Positions 3,910-17,351 of a stretch of DNA of 64,000 nt are shown here, one piece after another. The stretch is from NCBI GenBank assembly GCA_024697185.1, contig JAILGB010000007.1, forward strand, positions 1 through 64,000. The letters are read 5' to 3'. The translations under genes and the position numbers were made by a program. The notes below the pieces were generated by a model that saw nothing but the letters and a program-made list of their open reading frames with translations, did no database searches and was not told where the DNA came from. This DNA is from Opitutales bacterium. Its GTDB lineage: Bacteria; Verrucomicrobiota; Verrucomicrobiia; Opitutales; UBA953. The stretch's first letter is position 1. Each line of letters opens with the position of its first letter.

Positions 3910-5252
3910 CAGCGTGCGCCCATTTTTGCCAGCACTTCAAAGAAGTCCGGAAAGGTTTTGGCGCAGCAGCCGGGATCGTTGACGACGAGCCAGGGACGGG
4001 CGTTCCCGAGAAGATCGACGCTGCCGAGCATGCCGAAACTCATAGCGATGCGGTGGTCGCAATAAGTGTCAACGGCGATCGGGAGCGTCGCTTTGGCGAG
4101 CGTTCCCGCGAGATCCTGCGGCGCGGCGATCGTCAGGGAGTCTTCCGTCTCGACGATGTTTTGCGCGCCGACAATCTTGGCGAGTTCGGTCGCCATCGCA
4201 TGCACGCGGTCGCTCTCCTGCAGACGCGTGTGCGCGATCCCGTTGATCGTCACGCGCGCACCCGTCACGGGAACGAAGGCGGCGAGACTCAAAAACGTGT
4301 CGCTGATCGCATTGAAATCGAGCGCGAGCGAAGCGCCTTTCAGGGATTTGCCCGGCAAAAAAAGCGTTCCCGCGGCGGAAATCTCCCGCCGGACAAAATC
4401 GTGCTGTTCCAGCAAATCAAAAAAGCGCGTGTCTCCCTGAATGCTTTCGCGGCAAAGCCCGCGGACAAAAATCCGTCCGCCGGCAATCGCCCGCACCGCA
4501 AAATACGACGCCGCCGTCGCGTCCGGCTCGATCGCGTAGTCAAAATCTCCGCTCGCGTAGCCGCCGCCGTCAGAAACATACCCCCCGGCACTGCCGGCGA
4601 TTTTGCCGCCAAACTGCCCGATCATCGTCGTCGTCATCTCGAGAAAGGGCTTGGAAACCGTCGTTCCCGTTAAAGAAATTTTCAAAGCGCGCATCGGCGC
4701 GATCATCATAAGCGCGGACAAAATCTGCGAGGAGGCGGAGGCATCGACCGCAATCGCCGTTCCCGCGGGAACGCCGCCTGTCGTCATCGTGAAGGGAAAA
4801 AATCCCGCTTCGCCGTGAAACGTGAAACGGCAGCCGAGTTTTTCGAGCGCGTCAAGCAGGCCTTTCATCGGGCGCCGGCGCATGACCTCCGAGCCGTCGA
4901 GACGATAGGAGCCTTGGGGCGCCAGCGCAAGAAACGCGGTGAGAAAGCGAGCCGCCGTTCCCGCCGTCGCGACAAAAAGCTCCGCGGAAGGCGCGGGGAT
5001 CTTGCCGCCGCAACCGCAAATCCGAATCGTCCGCGCCGTCTCGTCGGCATCGATTTTAAAGCCCAGTTTTTGAAGACAGGCGATCATCGCGCGGGTGTCT
5101 TCGGAAAAAAGCGCATTGCTCAGCCGCGTCGTTCCCGCGCGCAACGCCGCCAGGATCATCGCGCGGTTAGTGATGCTTTTTGAGCCGGGAACAGAAATTT
5201 CAATTGTTCTGTCGGCGGCGGGAGAAAAAGGCGTGACGGGCAAAGATTTCAT
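3909..5252 (-). CDS. aroA: 3-phosphoshikimate 1-carboxyvinyltransferase (EPSP synthase)
   Basis: A 447-residue cytosolic enzyme that transfers enolpyruvyl from PEP to shikimate 3-phosphate in aromatic amino acid synthesis. Family motifs are intact: VPGSKSITNRAMILAA at 21-36, the AGTAARFLTAF loop near 115, RRRPMKGLLDAL for phosphate/PEP binding, and TYCDHRIAMSF near the C-terminus. The frame is open much further upstream (to 5,537) across the end of tatC. The ATG at 5,252 gives the normal length and N-terminus and lies 34 nt after the tatC stop, so I choose it. The stop overlaps the comEC start by one base. Several motif copies are present, giving inserted Ala-Gly-Thr peptides. Confidence 0.95.
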   Translation of the reverse strand: MKSLPVTPFSPAADRTIEISVPGSKSITNRAMILAALRAGTTRLSNALFSEDTRAMIACLQKLGFKIDADETARTIRICGCGGKIPAPSAELFVATAGTAARFLTAFLALAPQGSYRLDGSEVMRRRPMKGLLDALEKLGCRFTFHGEAGFFPFTMTTGGVPAGTAIAVDASASSQILSALMMIAPMRALKISLTGTTVSKPFLEMTTTMIGQFGGKIAGSAGGYVSDGGGYASGDFDYAIEPDATAASYFAVRAIAGGRIFVRGLCRESIQGDTRFFDLLEQHDFVRREISAAGTLFLPGKSLKGASLALDFNAISDTFLSLAAFVPVTGARVTINGIAHTRLQESDRVHAMATELAKIVGAQNIVETEDSLTIAAPQDLAGTLAKATLPIAVDTYCDHRIAMSFGMLGSVDLLGNARPWLVVNDPGCCAKTFPDFFEVLAKMGAR

Positions 5253-5286
5253 CGGGATTTTTAAAGATTGCAGATTGGGAATGTTT

Positions 5287-6183
5287 TTAGTCGAGAGAGC
5301 GCAGGTCACCGTTTTCGTCAATGGGCGGATCGTCGTTCCCGCGCGTTTCGTTTTTGCCGTTCCCGCCGGAAACGTCGTTCCCGCGGTCATCGGAAATCCC
5401 GTTCCCGTCGTCTTCGGGAACGGCTTTGTTTTTGCCCTTGCAGATTTTGTCGCCGACCAGAACGGCAGCCAGGTAGAGCGCAAAGAGCAGTCCCGTGAGC
5501 GCGAGGAGGGCGACGGGATCGCCGATCGGCGAGACAAAGGCCACGGCGATCAGAATCCCGGCGATGACATAGCGCCATTGGGCGAGCAGGGACTTCGTGC
5601 TGACGATTTCAAAATATTGCAAAGCGATGACGACGAGCGGGAACTCGAAAAGCAGCCCGGTAAAAAGCGTGATGAGGACGATAAAACTGTAATAGTCCGC
5701 AGCCAGCCAGTTGACGCTGAGCCCGAGCGTTCCCGAGAAAAAATACATGAAGCGGATCGACAGCGGCGCAAAAATAAAGAAGGCGCAGGCAGCACCGGCG
5801 AGAAAAAGCCCGCTGGCGGCGCTGACGACAGGCAGCAGCTTTTTTTGCTCGCCGGAACTGAGCGCCGGCAGGACAAACGCACCGACCTTGTAGAGAATCA
5901 CCGGAGAGGCGAGCACAAAACCGCCGAGAAGCGCGATATAGACAAGGATCGAAAACGGATCCATGAAATGCAGGCTGGCGAGACCGTTCCCGCCGTCACC
6001 GGCAAATTCGGGATTGTCGGCGAGCACCCGCTCGAGCGGCCAGCGCAGGGCGTCAAAAATCTGTCTGTAAAAAACGATCGATCCCGCCGCTGCGACCGCA
6101 AAGCCCGCGATGCAGGCGATAAGCACCGAGCGCAGTTCCTCGAGATGTTCGAGGAAAGTCATGTTGTTGGGATCCTTGGGCAT
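5287..6183 (-). CDS. tatC: Sec-independent protein translocase TatC with motif-encoded C-terminal tail
   Basis: A 298-residue, six-helix inner-membrane protein that recognises twin-arginine signal peptides. It starts MPKDPNNMTFLEHLEELR, the conserved TatC N-terminus, and keeps the SPIGDPVA region before the last helix. After the last membrane segment there is a hydrophilic tail of about 55 residues made of Gly, Asn, Asp and Glu (GNGISDDRGNDVSGGNG...). The corresponding DNA (about 5,335-5,425) is essentially five CGTTCCCG/CGGGAACG motifs in about 85 nt, so the tail looks like motif DNA being translated. sufC lies 3 nt upstream; aroA follows. No tatA/tatB is in the window. Confidence 0.93.
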   Translation of the reverse strand: MPKDPNNMTFLEHLEELRSVLIACIAGFAVAAAGSIVFYRQIFDALRWPLERVLADNPEFAGDGGNGLASLHFMDPFSILVYIALLGGFVLASPVILYKVGAFVLPALSSGEQKKLLPVVSAASGLFLAGAACAFFIFAPLSIRFMYFFSGTLGLSVNWLAADYYSFIVLITLFTGLLFEFPLVVIALQYFEIVSTKSLLAQWRYVIAGILIAVAFVSPIGDPVALLALTGLLFALYLAAVLVGDKICKGKNKAVPEDDGNGISDDRGNDVSGGNGKNETRGNDDPPIDENGDLRSLD

Positions 6184-12950: not shown

Positions 12951-14963
12951 ATGAAGCAATTTTTTGTGTTCATTAACGATGAAACGGTAGGTCCGTTCCC
13001 GCAAGATCAAGTCGAAGCCAAAATCCGTTCCGGAGAATATCCCTATGATGTTTTGATCGCGGACGCCGGCAAGGAGAATCTGACGGAAAACGACTGGGTG
13101 GAGGCGGCGGGAGCCTTGAATATTCGCCGCGCCGGCGTCGGTTTGCGTATGGCGGGCAAATCGGCGGAGGAGGAAAAGCGTCTGCGCGAGGCGCGCGAGG
13201 AAAAAATCGATCCCGAGATCCGCGTCAAACTGATGCGTTACGGCTTGGCGGACTCGATTTCCGTCGATAAATTTTCCCCGGAACAGGCAAAAGCTGCCGT
13301 GGAGTTTTACGAAAAAAACCAAAAGCGTTTCCGCGCCATAAAAATTTCTGCCGGCATCGGCGGTTTTGTTTTGTCCGCCGCGCTTTTTTCCGGGCTGTTT
13401 TGCATTGAGTTGGGCGGCAAGGCTCCGCATCGCAATCTGCTCGCGCCCGTCATCGAACTTTTTGTCGAGCCCAATGAAGCCTTGAACAATCACAAGAAGA
13501 CGGTCGCCAAGGAGATTATGCAACTCGAAGAACTGCGTCAGGAAGTGGCGGCTGTGGAATTTGTCCTGCCCAAGGGTAAGGCTGTCGGCGATCTTTTCTT
13601 GAACCAGGTCGAGATTCCCGCAGACCAGCGCGAATTTACGACGGCGACAGTGAACTATGAACCGTTGGCGGCGGCGTTTGGCGCTCCGACGGCGGTAAAA
13701 GTCTATCTGCCCCAAAACCCGTTTTCATCGACGGCGAAAAAATGGTTGCCGGAGGAAATCGAAGAGCGGATTTTGTTGAACAGCCCCGCGTGGACAAACG
13801 AGGAGCTTTCGAACAATGCCAGCCAGGAACTCGGTCCGCTGCTGCCGACATCCAAGGCCGTTCAAGCCTTCACGGCGCGCCTGCTCGACATGCTTTCAAA
13901 ACTGGATTGCGAAACGGCGCTGGAGCAGCCAAAAGTCTGGGCGGACGGCTTGATCGAAATCGTCAAGAAACAGGATTCGCGGCATATTTACTATTTTGAC
14001 TCGGAACTCAAACGGATTGCGACGCGCGCGGACGAACACGGCAATTTGCCGTCGGAACTTTCGACCCAGTTGCCGCGCAACCGGGATTTGGAGATGCTCC
14101 CCAAGGACGGCAGCGGCAAATCACTCGTCGTCGCATGGGCTTGTCGTGAGATGCCGGCGTTTTTGGACAAGTTCAACAATTTCCTCAAAGCCAACCGCTA
14201 CAAGTTTTCGCGTCAGGCGCGTCTGGACCGCTGGAACGATTTTAGAGCCAAGGAAGGCGATGTCGTCAAGATGGAGATGGAAAAAGTCCTGGGCGCGACA
14301 GCCGTCGATATTGACGAAGACGGAACCCTCACCATCTCCGGCAACCAGTCCCGACTGCGCAACGCCTGCCTCGCGTTTACGGTCGGCGATGAAACCTTTG
14401 TCGTTCCCGCCAAAACCGCCTTCAATCCCAAGGGCCCGAACGATCTGGTCGGCAAAGTGTCGGAAAAGGCAGTCGCGTTTGATTTGACAAACATCACCGG
14501 CAAAAAGACGACAAAGGCGGATTTTCTCGCCGACGAACGTTACGAAGTCAAAGAAAAAATCGAAGTCGGCGGCGTCCCGTATTTTAAGGAAGGGATGCTC
14601 GACAAGAAAAAAGTGCCGGTCGTCAAATGCTCGCCGAAACTTTATTATATCGCCGTTTTGCGCCATGTTGCCGACGATTCGCCGCAACACCGCCGCAACA
14701 AGCCGATAATCCTGGGCGTTCCCGAGGACGATTACAACGCGGTGAAGGAAGGCGATCTGCTGACCGTCGAACAGTTGAGCCAGTATCAAGTTTTCAATCG
14801 CGCACAAGAAGCGCAAAACAAAAGCCAGCTGCGCCCGATGTCCAAAGAGCAGGCGGCGGAATATTTCGCAAAGGGAGAAAACGGAAAAAAACCGGAAGCA
14901 GACGAAACACCGGCGGACGATGAGGCGGAAGAAGACGTTCCCGCCGACGAAGCGGAAGAATAG
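12951..14963 (+). CDS. Large GYF_2-domain membrane-anchored protein of unknown function
   Basis: The 670-residue protein starts with a GYF_2-type module (residues 3-55, FFVFINDETVGPFPQDQ), which usually binds peptides or other proteins. A charged helix (68-130) and one membrane helix at about 131-153 follow. The remaining 500 or so residues are soluble and mixed alpha/beta. The last 35 residues are strongly acidic (Asp/Glu/Ala repeats). With the GYF module inside, the large domain would lie outside the membrane, although orientation is not certain. I recognise no enzymatic motif. It has its own promoter and a strong terminator after it. It carries few copies of the genome motif for its length, suggesting sequence constraint. 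Confidence 0.75.
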   Translation: MKQFFVFINDETVGPFPQDQVEAKIRSGEYPYDVLIADAGKENLTENDWVEAAGALNIRRAGVGLRMAGKSAEEEKRLREAREEKIDPEIRVKLMRYGLADSISVDKFSPEQAKAAVEFYEKNQKRFRAIKISAGIGGFVLSAALFSGLFCIELGGKAPHRNLLAPVIELFVEPNEALNNHKKTVAKEIMQLEELRQEVAAVEFVLPKGKAVGDLFLNQVEIPADQREFTTATVNYEPLAAAFGAPTAVKVYLPQNPFSSTAKKWLPEEIEERILLNSPAWTNEELSNNASQELGPLLPTSKAVQAFTARLLDMLSKLDCETALEQPKVWADGLIEIVKKQDSRHIYYFDSELKRIATRADEHGNLPSELSTQLPRNRDLEMLPKDGSGKSLVVAWACREMPAFLDKFNNFLKANRYKFSRQARLDRWNDFRAKEGDVVKMEMEKVLGATAVDIDEDGTLTISGNQSRLRNACLAFTVGDETFVVPAKTAFNPKGPNDLVGKVSEKAVAFDLTNITGKKTTKADFLADERYEVKEKIEVGGVPYFKEGMLDKKKVPVVKCSPKLYYIAVLRHVADDSPQHRRNKPIILGVPEDDYNAVKEGDLLTVEQLSQYQVFNRAQEAQNKSQLRPMSKEQAAEYFAKGENGKKPEADETPADDEAEEDVPADEAEE

Positions 14964-14990: not shown

Positions 14991-15024
14991 CCGTTCCCGT
15001 GAAAGCCGCGGGAACGGTTTTTTT
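14991..15024 (+). terminator. Intrinsic terminator built from a motif pair
   Basis: Perfect 9-bp arms CCGTTCCCG (14,991-14,999) and CGGGAACGG (15,009-15,017) are followed by seven T (15,018-15,024). It closes the GYF-domain gene; the next gene is on the other strand. Confidence 0.9.
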
Positions 15025-15048
15025 ATTGTCGCGGGAACGCGTCAGAAT

Positions 15049-16134
15049 TTAATTGCCGCCTTTGCGCCGATTACAGTCTTTGCAGAGCATTTGGCAGTTT
15101 TCGGCAATTGTTCTTCCGCCATCGTGCCAAGGCGTGATGTGGTCGCCTTCCATTTCTTCGTAGTTGAAATGCTTTTTACAGACGGGGCAAATTCCTTTTT
15201 GCTTTTCGTAAGCGGTGTGTTTCATCGTGTCTGAGAAAGCGCGAACGCTCAGATGTTTTTCTTCGCGGGTCAGGATGTATTGGTAGATGCCGGATTTATT
15301 TGTCACGTCATCGTCCGCCATAAGTTTTTTGACTTCCGTTTCGAGCGTTTCCGCATTAAACGTGTTACTTTTATATTTATTATACAAATCGCCCCAGGGA
15401 ACGCCTTTCATTTCCTTGCGGTATTTGGGGAATAAAATTTTGACCCAGTTGATGACGGATTGGAAATATTGCCATAGGGGAGAGGCATTGGCGTCGTGCT
15501 GGTGAGTCGCCATGTAGTTTTCGATATGGTTTTCGCTGATCCATTCGATTGCTGTTTCCAAAAATTCTTGGCGAATTGGCGCTCCCTTCAAGTAGTCCTT
15601 ACCGATCTGATATGCCGCGCAGCCGTTCCTGCTGAAATAGCGTTTGGCATCGACAGTCCAAGTGCCGGCATAGACGGCGTTGCGGAGTTCCTGGTTCGAC
15701 AATTTTTCGCCGGCGATATTGATGGTTTTAAACCACGACAATTTTTCGCTGTCTGTGCCTTTGCAGATATAAATCGTCAGTTTGTAGTTTTCAAATCTGG
15801 CTTTTTCATCGGGCGTCAGGTTGTGATAATAGCGATTTTCAAGCGAAAACACGCTTTTTGCATATTGGCAGATTGAAATGGTTCGTTGTTGCCCGTCAAT
15901 AATTTCAAAAGTCCCGTTGTCGCGCGCCGCCCAATACATTACATTGAGGGGAAAACCTTTAAAAACAGTATCAATTACAGCTTCGCGTTGTTTGTCGTTA
16001 TAGACAAATTCCCGCTGATAGATGGGTCGGATGTCCAATTTGCCGCCGTATCCGACGACATGGCTGGTTTGGGGATCTTCGCTGTAGCCGTCGGCGAGTT
16101 CTTTGATCGTTATTTCTTTGAGTGTGATTTCCAT
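15049..16134 (-). CDS. DUF262-HNH protein (GmrSD/restriction-type nuclease)
   Basis: The 361-residue protein has an N-terminal DUF262 domain with DIRPIYQREFVY (34-45) and the hallmark DGQQR at 80-84, a ParB-like nucleotidase motif. Its C-terminal HNH zinc nuclease has paired CPVC and CKDC knuckles around GDHITPWHDGG. This architecture is that of DUF262-HNH proteins related to GmrS/GmrD type IV restriction and other defence nucleases. It lies 21 nt behind an EcoRI-type adenine methyltransferase, so a restriction-modification-like pair is the natural reading, though not proven. The gene is AT-richer than its surroundings and almost free of the genome motif, which points to horizontal acquisition. 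Confidence 0.88.
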   Translation of the reverse strand: MEITLKEITIKELADGYSEDPQTSHVVGYGGKLDIRPIYQREFVYNDKQREAVIDTVFKGFPLNVMYWAARDNGTFEIIDGQQRTISICQYAKSVFSLENRYYHNLTPDEKARFENYKLTIYICKGTDSEKLSWFKTINIAGEKLSNQELRNAVYAGTWTVDAKRYFSRNGCAAYQIGKDYLKGAPIRQEFLETAIEWISENHIENYMATHQHDANASPLWQYFQSVINWVKILFPKYRKEMKGVPWGDLYNKYKSNTFNAETLETEVKKLMADDDVTNKSGIYQYILTREEKHLSVRAFSDTMKHTAYEKQKGICPVCKKHFNYEEMEGDHITPWHDGGRTIAENCQMLCKDCNRRKGGN

Positions 16135-16155
16135 GGTTTGGGGGAGGGGTTAAAA

Positions 16156-17163
16156 TTAGTGGAGACGGCGGATTGCAAGTCTTTTATAAAGAGGTTTCCC
16201 ATTAACAATCGGATTGGCAATATTGTATTCGTCAATTTTCCCAGAATCTATTTTCCCAATAATTTCGAATTGTTTGGGATTGAATTTGTCTAAAAAAGTA
16301 ATCGGGACGCCCATAACTCCGTCGTAGTCCATTGGGATTTCGGAAGTTTTTGAAACTTCGATTGCGTCATAGTTGTCGTATTTCGGGTATTCTTCCGGGT
16401 TGTAGTTTTTATAAAGGATCAAATCTTCGTGGCGTTTTGGATGGTCTAAATTGGTAAACCAACAAATATTTCCCATGCTACGCCATTTTTGTCCCGTTTC
16501 ATCAATCCAAAAACGATTGCTTTTCTCTTCATAATGAGAAGGAACTTTGAATGCGCAATATGACAAGGCGTGTCCGATCCATATTTTATTTTTCATAATT
16601 AAAGGGAAAATTTCTCGATAAGTAATCGCATTTTGATTCCCAATAATTAAAAATTGTTTATTGTGTTGGACTAATTGTGCGACGTATTCCCGGAAAAGGG
16701 AGAATGGCGGGTTTGTGACGATGATGTCTGCTTTTTTTAGGAGTTCGGTGCATTCTTTTGAGCGGAAGTCTCCGTCTCCGTGGAGTTCGGTCAGGATATT
16801 TTTTCGGGATTTTATAAGGAGTTTTACGTCGGCGAGGTCGATTGCGCCGTTCCCGTCCATGTCGGGGACTTCGGTGATGACGATTTTGTAGGGCTTTTTA
16901 GAGTTGAGGGTCAGTTCGTTGTCAACGACGGGCGAGCCTTCGTAGCAGGTGGCGATAAGTTTTCTTATGCCGAGGCGGTTAAAATTGAGGGCGAAATATT
17001 TGAAGAAATTGCTCTCGTAGGGGTCGTCGCAGTTGCAAAAGACAGTTTTGCCTCGAAAATGTTCCGTGTAGTGGCGGAGTTCATTTTCGATATCGCAGAG
17101 TTGTGTATAAAACTCGTCTTTTTTGGCGGATTTTGCCGTCGTCAGATTTTTATTACCTCCCAT
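16156..17163 (-). CDS. Adenine-specific DNA methyltransferase, EcoRI family
   Basis: A 335-residue protein, close to the 326 residues of M.EcoRI. It begins MGGNKNLTTAKSAKKDEFYTQ, typical of the EcoRI_methylase family. The catalytic NPPF of N6-adenine methylases is at 151-154, and CNCDDPYESNFFKYF at 43-57 belongs to the SAM-binding region. The frame is open to 17,295, but the ATG at 17,163 is preceded by AAGGAAG at good spacing and gives the family N-terminus. It would modify a DNA site, probably protecting against the DUF262-HNH nuclease downstream. GAATTC is not depleted in this window, so EcoRI specificity cannot be assumed. Low GC and scarcity of the genome motif indicate an acquired island. 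Confidence 0.88.
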   Translation of the reverse strand: MGGNKNLTTAKSAKKDEFYTQLCDIENELRHYTEHFRGKTVFCNCDDPYESNFFKYFALNFNRLGIRKLIATCYEGSPVVDNELTLNSKKPYKIVITEVPDMDGNGAIDLADVKLLIKSRKNILTELHGDGDFRSKECTELLKKADIIVTNPPFSLFREYVAQLVQHNKQFLIIGNQNAITYREIFPLIMKNKIWIGHALSYCAFKVPSHYEEKSNRFWIDETGQKWRSMGNICWFTNLDHPKRHEDLILYKNYNPEEYPKYDNYDAIEVSKTSEIPMDYDGVMGVPITFLDKFNPKQFEIIGKIDSGKIDEYNIANPIVNGKPLYKRLAIRRLH

Positions 17164-17182
17164 TATAGTCTTCCTTTCTTTT

Positions 17183-17213
17183 TTTATAATGAAAAAAAAA
17201 AGAAAACTTGCAA
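17183..17213 (-). promoter_or_regulatory. Candidate slippage-prone promoter of the methyltransferase
   Basis: On the minus strand TTGCAA (17,208-17,213) is followed by TTATAA (spacer 18) or TATAAA (spacer 19). Ten of the spacer bases are an uninterrupted T-run (A at 17,192-17,201 on the plus strand). A 9-A run lies just upstream at 17,216-17,224. A change of one or two bases would bring the boxes to 17 bp. Confidence 0.4.
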
Positions 17214-17289
17214 CGAAAAAAAAACGGGCTTTTCGGGATTGTTTTTTTGGTTGGGTTTTGTTTTTTATTTTGCTCTGAAAAATTTTTTC

Positions 17290-17318
17290 TTGCACAAATA
17301 AAAAATTGTATGTAGAAT
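17290..17318 (+). promoter_or_regulatory. Promoter of the ribosomal protein operon
   Basis: TTGCAC (17,290-17,295), 17 bp, TAGAAT (17,313-17,318). The predicted start near 17,325 leaves a leader of about 27 nt before rpmC. It explains how the operon can begin at rpmC without the usual upstream S10 genes. Confidence 0.6.
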
Positions 17319-17351
17319 GGAAATTCCTAAAGTATTTAATGCCCTATTACA

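Follow-up and report, generated by a model that had tools for sequence, protein, structure and literature searches.

EcoRI is a textbook Type II enzyme, and the EcoRI system is a small two-gene cassette on one strand, with the endonuclease gene preceding the methylase gene on E. coli plasmids. M.CjeNI (CtsM) of Campylobacter jejuni presumably belongs to the same Pfam family (EcoRI_methylase, PF13651) as the methylase studied here. In the accessible part of its published account, M.CjeNI serves self-DNA discrimination in transformation and, as a difference from the present locus, is described without a DUF262-HNH partner (PMC8627207). Among DUF262 proteins, the best-characterised enzymes GmrSD, BrxU and SspE either require modified DNA or sense it, and do not behave as Type II enzymes (PMC12707154). 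Two database or predicted entries come close to the locus considered below, by full-length model matches and by size of the R gene, respectively: the PADLOC Type II models REase_II (PDLC03418) and MTase_II (PDLC03297), and Pin25611FORF1345P of Prevotella intermedia, where a methylase 51% identical to M.EcoRI is directly followed by a 1104-bp R gene (PMC5608340). A methylome study of this species in 2017 listed the pair as a putative GAATTC system and did not detect GAATTC methylation (PMC5608340). As the EcoRI gene measures 834 bp, the size of the Prevotella R gene fits a DUF262-HNH protein and not EcoRI, and from its size and place we infer that it encodes a protein of this kind. No paper describing the pairing of DUF262-HNH proteins with EcoRI-type methylases by name, or testing it, was found in the open-access literature.

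The pair studied here is located in a window of 64,000 nucleotides (the whole stretch of DNA that was analysed) from an Opitutales bacterium, where both predicted open reading frames were confirmed as adjacent genes on the minus strand, with the methylase gene M (16156-17163, 335 aa) first, the nuclease gene R (15049-16134, 361 aa) second, and 21 bp between them. M is an EcoRI-family adenine-N6 DNA methyltransferase starting at an ATG at 17163, preceded by AAAGGAAG. It matches PF13651 over its full length (E 8.7e-146; 486 bits, cut-off 26.4) and the PADLOC model MTase_II with 441 bits over residues 47-377 of the long frame, carries the invariant catalytic motif NPPF (16702-16713, minus strand), and shares 51% identity with M.EcoRI over its full length. 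The product of R combines a GmrSD_N/DUF262 domain (PF03235, E 1.4e-19, 71.5 bits against a cut-off of 33.2) with an HNH domain (PF01844, E 1.1e-13, with HNH_5 also matching), as was originally predicted for a partner of the GmrSD kind, and scores 452 bits against REase_II over residues 1-358. An EcoRI-like partner is indeed absent, as R shows no relationship to R.EcoRI (best BLAST E 8.8). The cassette is thus similar to the EcoRI system in its compact one-strand layout and in its methylase, but differs from it in having a DUF262-HNH nuclease in place of a PD-(D/E)XK enzyme, and in the M-R gene order that is usual for DUF262-HNH pairs.

The association of the two genes extends far beyond this genome. 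A scan of GTDB with one genome per species returned at least 586 pattern matches, at least 582 of them encoding R relatives, and in the best 80 of these M was found beside R at 77 loci, on the same strand and mostly less than 300 bp away (at most 1.6 kb), with M first in 76 of the 77. Two of the remaining three loci end at a contig edge, and the third (L061) lacks an adjacent M because cargo sits between the two genes, with M 7.8 kb upstream and other defence genes in the gap. By their record titles, where contamination of single metagenome-assembled genomes is possible, the best 80 R loci belong to Bacteroidota, Paenibacillus, Neisseria, Campylobacterota, Chloroflexi, Acidobacteria, Saccharibacteria and one archaeal bin. 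The pair is also present on plasmids and phages, including the Flavobacterium phage laban6-1, where it was annotated by Pfam, and the pairing persists down to R relatives of 38% identity. In a survey of 141 relative genomes, M and R relatives that cover most of the query occurred in the same five genomes (identity of at least 57%, plus one fragmented copy in G120). When M and R were searched separately across the phylum, in a set of 387 genomes, 35 had both, one had R alone, 12 had M alone and 339 lacked both (Fisher p 2e-38, a value that overstates the number of independent events owing to the kinship of the genomes); the single R without M among the 36 R-bearing genomes is a fragment at a contig end. 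The distances between M sequences and between R sequences are correlated as well (Mantel r 0.68 over 100 loci, reached in none of 1000 shuffles). The co-occurrence proposed as a check on the original prediction is therefore well documented, at 77 of 80 loci and in 35 of 36 R-bearing genomes, and these observations support M and R as a co-inherited pair of the restriction-modification type. One genome of the phylum (G453; contigs C274, C309, C56 and C344) harbours four separate M-R cassettes.

Viewed from the methylase side, the premise that EcoRI-family methylases normally accompany EcoRI-like enzymes turned out to be backwards. Among the best 30 methylase loci, the partner was a DUF262-HNH protein in 26 (in L192 only as a fragment at a contig end) and EcoRI in two, and the rest comprised one locus without an adjacent partner, where R is 7.8 kb away, and one at a contig edge. 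DUF262-HNH proteins, not EcoRI, are the common partner of EcoRI-family methylases. The suggestion that the pairing could be a new arrangement is likewise not upheld, since the PADLOC Type II models cover both proteins, a like-sized Prevotella pair was listed in 2017, and DUF262-HNH is the commonest partner among the sampled loci; the cassette is an ordinary find, of a kind that is already listed in databases and present in many unrelated bacteria.

In the methylase trees, all EcoRI-partnered methylases form one clade (support 100/99), and this clade is joined (100/100) to the methylase of locus L041, which has a DUF262-HNH partner. The L041 methylase shares 69% identity with M.EcoRI and so stands as close to it as most EcoRI-partnered methylases do, and the R of this locus is 66% identical to that of the window. 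At least one nuclease swap thus took place behind a conserved methylase, and the trees show a single switch, in either direction. With distant outgroups, which are long branches, the EcoRI-partnered methylases are placed inside a DUF262-HNH background, with the alternative not rejected (AU p 0.32). Abundance and this distant rooting favour EcoRI as the newcomer nuclease.

Methylases of this family also occur in other contexts. Solitary copies exist, for example in genome G209 and in the Mycobacterium phage Marchy (L208, 2983-4059), and the methylase of Marchy and its relatives is 51-55% identical to both M and M.EcoRI; it is possibly an anti-restriction gene. In a Lactiplantibacillus plasmid and a Lachnospiraceae phage (L169, 2180-4282, and L207, 609-2717), the EcoRI-type methylase forms a single fusion protein of 700 aa with a C5-cytosine methylase, and two unknown genes follow; neither a DUF262-HNH protein nor EcoRI adjoins these fusions (the Pfam scan covered L169).

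The conserved residues of R are all intact. The motif DGQQR of the DUF262 domain is invariant among 40 homologues and appears as IDGQQR at residues 79-84 (DGQQR itself at residues 80-84, 15883-15897, minus strand); it is predicted to act in nucleotide binding or hydrolysis, as proposed for GmrS (PMC4619093). The HNH nuclease domain (residues 298-361; 15052-15243, minus strand) lines its catalytic residues (D331, H332, N346 and N355) and zinc ligands (C316, C319, C351 and C354) up with those of the structure 4H9D, with the numbering shifted throughout by 278, the 4H9D residues being taken from published work (PMC4619093, PMC3765158). An AlphaFold2 model of R (mean pLDDT 91) consists of a ParB/Srx-like N-terminal domain (about residues 1-141), a helical middle and the HNH domain. 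A Foldseek search of the model against the PDB gave nothing under E 0.001, and no PF13651 methylase with a solved structure was found by sequence for M. In a second look at the structure of R with VIA-align, where even Z values near 8 are modest, the C-terminus matched HNH nucleases (Z about 7), and the N-terminus separately matched SspE (Z 6.8 over 125 residues, confined to residues 1-141 of R), ParB and sulfiredoxin.

The top whole-length PDB match of R in the same comparison was BrxU (Z 8.2), a Type IV enzyme of the GmrSD family that, like R, joins a DUF262 domain bearing DGQQR to a His-Me finger nuclease within a single polypeptide. It is accordingly conceivable, if very improbable, that R targets modified phage DNA in the manner of GmrSD and BrxU, and that M is an independent methylase, protective or orphan, that simply accompanies it, a scenario to which the solitary methylases of G209 and Marchy also lend some weight. 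Such enzymes, however, need no cognate methylase, whereas R is tied to M by a near one-to-one coupling with correlated divergence. In addition, R is shorter (about 361 aa versus 560-580 aa in BrxU chains) and ends in a zinc HNH domain of PF01844 rather than in the DUF1524 (GmrD) nuclease domain, which is absent from its Pfam matches at E 0.1.

The resemblance to SspE suggests another possibility, as SspE too has an N-terminal DUF262 domain and works beside a DNA-modifying partner. In an SspE-like defence, the DUF262 domain of R would read host sites methylated by M, these sites would switch its NTPase, and the HNH domain would then nick or cut unmarked phage DNA, so that R would be no site-specific Type II enzyme. 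The DGQQR motif, the N-terminal alignment and the nearly constant company of M are all consistent with this mechanism, but one clade of the same methylase lineage works with EcoRI, an ordinary Type II enzyme, and R, with 361 aa against 560-771 aa, has no counterpart to the large C-terminal half of SspE. An SspE-like mode of action thus appears improbable, though not to the same degree as a Type IV function. The two proteins also differ in their C-terminal halves, and the partner of SspE makes phosphorothioates.

The cassette is most likely a two-gene, Type II-like restriction-modification system directed at a GAATTC-like palindrome, with R cutting unmethylated sites and the two genes moving as a unit. 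On host DNA, M would methylate an adenine in this palindrome, either GAATTC or the less strict RAATTY, and R would cut incoming DNA wherever the site is unmethylated and spare the DNA of the host. The presence of the EcoRI endonuclease in the place of R in one methylase clade is expected if both nucleases do the same job. The full-length PADLOC Type II models speak for this reading as well, and the closeness of the L041 methylase to M.EcoRI lends indirect support to a common site. The two proteins, their motifs, their joint inheritance and their patchy occurrence are shown directly, and from these we infer cleavage, the sharing of a recognition site by the two proteins and any nucleotide dependence; a nucleotide requirement of R is possible by analogy to the GmrS-like domain with its DGQQR motif. 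The Campylobacter methylase M.CjeNI was first reported for GAATTC and was assigned RAATTY by SMRT sequencing (PMC3526280), and this correction makes RAATTY a live option for M. Evidence on the other side comes from the modification-dependent or modification-sensing behaviour of the best-characterised DUF262 enzymes, from the Prevotella pair with its lack of GAATTC methylation, and from the absence of GAATTC avoidance in this genome beyond a Markov expectation.

Avoidance of GAATTC was considered as a sign of activity or specificity and was dropped. The window has 12 copies versus 46 in dinucleotide shuffles, but over 226 kb of the genome the observed-to-expected ratio is 0.93 under a fourth-order Markov model, and among congeners, whether or not they have the pair, it ranges from 0.45 to 1.06. 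Other palindromes are strongly depleted under Markov expectations: GTCGAC occurs three times versus 80 expected in the same 226 kb and four times versus 24.5 in one congener (G001), and CTCGAG twice versus 38 in another (G004), which hints at other, older restriction-modification pressure in the genus.

The pair was found in one of seven congeners, and it is therefore horizontally acquired in this genome. The original prediction of an acquired, AT-rich cassette is borne out by this patchy presence and by its low GC content (43.7% versus 52.4% for the window); equally AT-rich windows of cassette size number 27 of 619, and the non-overlapping ones all fall in a single stretch near 59-62 kb. The further claim, that the genes are nearly without the genome motif, holds weakly. 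There is one copy of CGGGAACG inside the cassette versus 7.5 expected from the 221 copies in the window (Poisson p 0.005), but the spread of the motif is uneven, and 127 of 619 equal-sized windows, about a fifth, have one copy or none. Elsewhere, copies of CGGGAACG are sometimes paired in inverted orientation within terminator-like stems that follow genes (e.g., 14992-15032), which recalls DNA uptake sequences known from other bacteria.

The cassette lies at a rearrangement breakpoint. In each of the seven congeners, 35-69 bp separate rplP from rpmC within an intact S10 operon, and only in this genome is the operon broken between them (window 15049-17351 and L128, G000:C14, 4701-7145): rplP is on another contig with hisG after it, and the cassette precedes rpmC, the first gene of the detached half. 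To the left of the cassette and outside it lies a gene for a GYF-like domain protein (12951-14963, plus strand; Pfam PF14237 below cut-off), which is located elsewhere in the genome in 7/7 congeners; to the right, and also outside the cassette, rpmC (L29; 17352-17567, plus strand; PF00831) follows an AT-rich divergent intergenic region (17164-17351). With a GYF-domain gene and ribosomal protein genes as its neighbours, R does not form part of any other adjoining system, in line with the original reading. By eye, resemblance to the rplP-rpmC spacers of five congeners begins at about 17320, and the right edge of the insertion is therefore placed there. As both junctions are well inside contigs, a single misjoin at a contig end is no explanation for the break. 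A break through reciprocal exchange of the GYF and hisG neighbourhoods was also considered and is unsupported, the two being on different contigs in congeners.

The cassette probably moves as a unit among distant bacteria, plasmids and phages, and its insertion here would be a recent one. Such a newcomer could look intact and yet be silent or decaying, and hence inactive in this host. Its patchy distribution and AT-richness, the lack of excess GAATTC avoidance and the reported inactivity of the Prevotella relative (PMC5608340) are compatible with silence. In the window copy, however, neither reading frame is disrupted, no conserved residue is lost and a plausible ribosome-binding site precedes M, so that a silent cassette seems unlikely, although less so than either of the alternative mechanisms discussed above.

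At other loci, additional genes were noted between M and R. The 7.8-kb gap mentioned above (L246, 1724-11537, the same locus as L061) encodes a GHKL ATPase, an ImmA-like protein, a PIN protein, a nucleotidyltransferase, a C5 methylase and an NgoFVII-type PLD nuclease; the first approximately 23 residues of the C5 methylase ORF read like the start of a DUF262-HNH R, as if a system had been inserted into the R gene with duplication of its start. A Fic protein lies between M and R in four Paludibacteraceae loci (L053, L060, L063 and L064, about 4994-5947), and Bro-N/DinD-like proteins do so in Rickettsiales and in a Bacteroidetes locus (L079, L080; L104). The interval between M and R seems to be a recurrent site of insertion.

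What is new here is the correction that EcoRI-family methylases are usually partnered by DUF262-HNH proteins. A broader evolutionary scenario can be put forward tentatively, at somewhat less than even confidence: the "EcoRI methylase" family may mainly serve NTP-binding, GmrS-like Type II enzymes that form a widespread class, with R.EcoRI having later replaced that nuclease in one lineage, so that an unrelated HNH enzyme would recognise the EcoRI site and might do so under a nucleotide switch. To our knowledge, such a switch is not known in standard Type II enzymes. The direct question raised is whether a DUF262 protein, a type so far known from enzymes that depend on or sense modification, could also work as a regular restriction enzyme with a specific site, and whether this would require a nucleotide. 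If this scenario is true, the same palindrome may be read by two unrelated nucleases that were swapped behind a conserved methylase, and the swap would provide a clean case for how a restriction-modification system survives a change of its nuclease.
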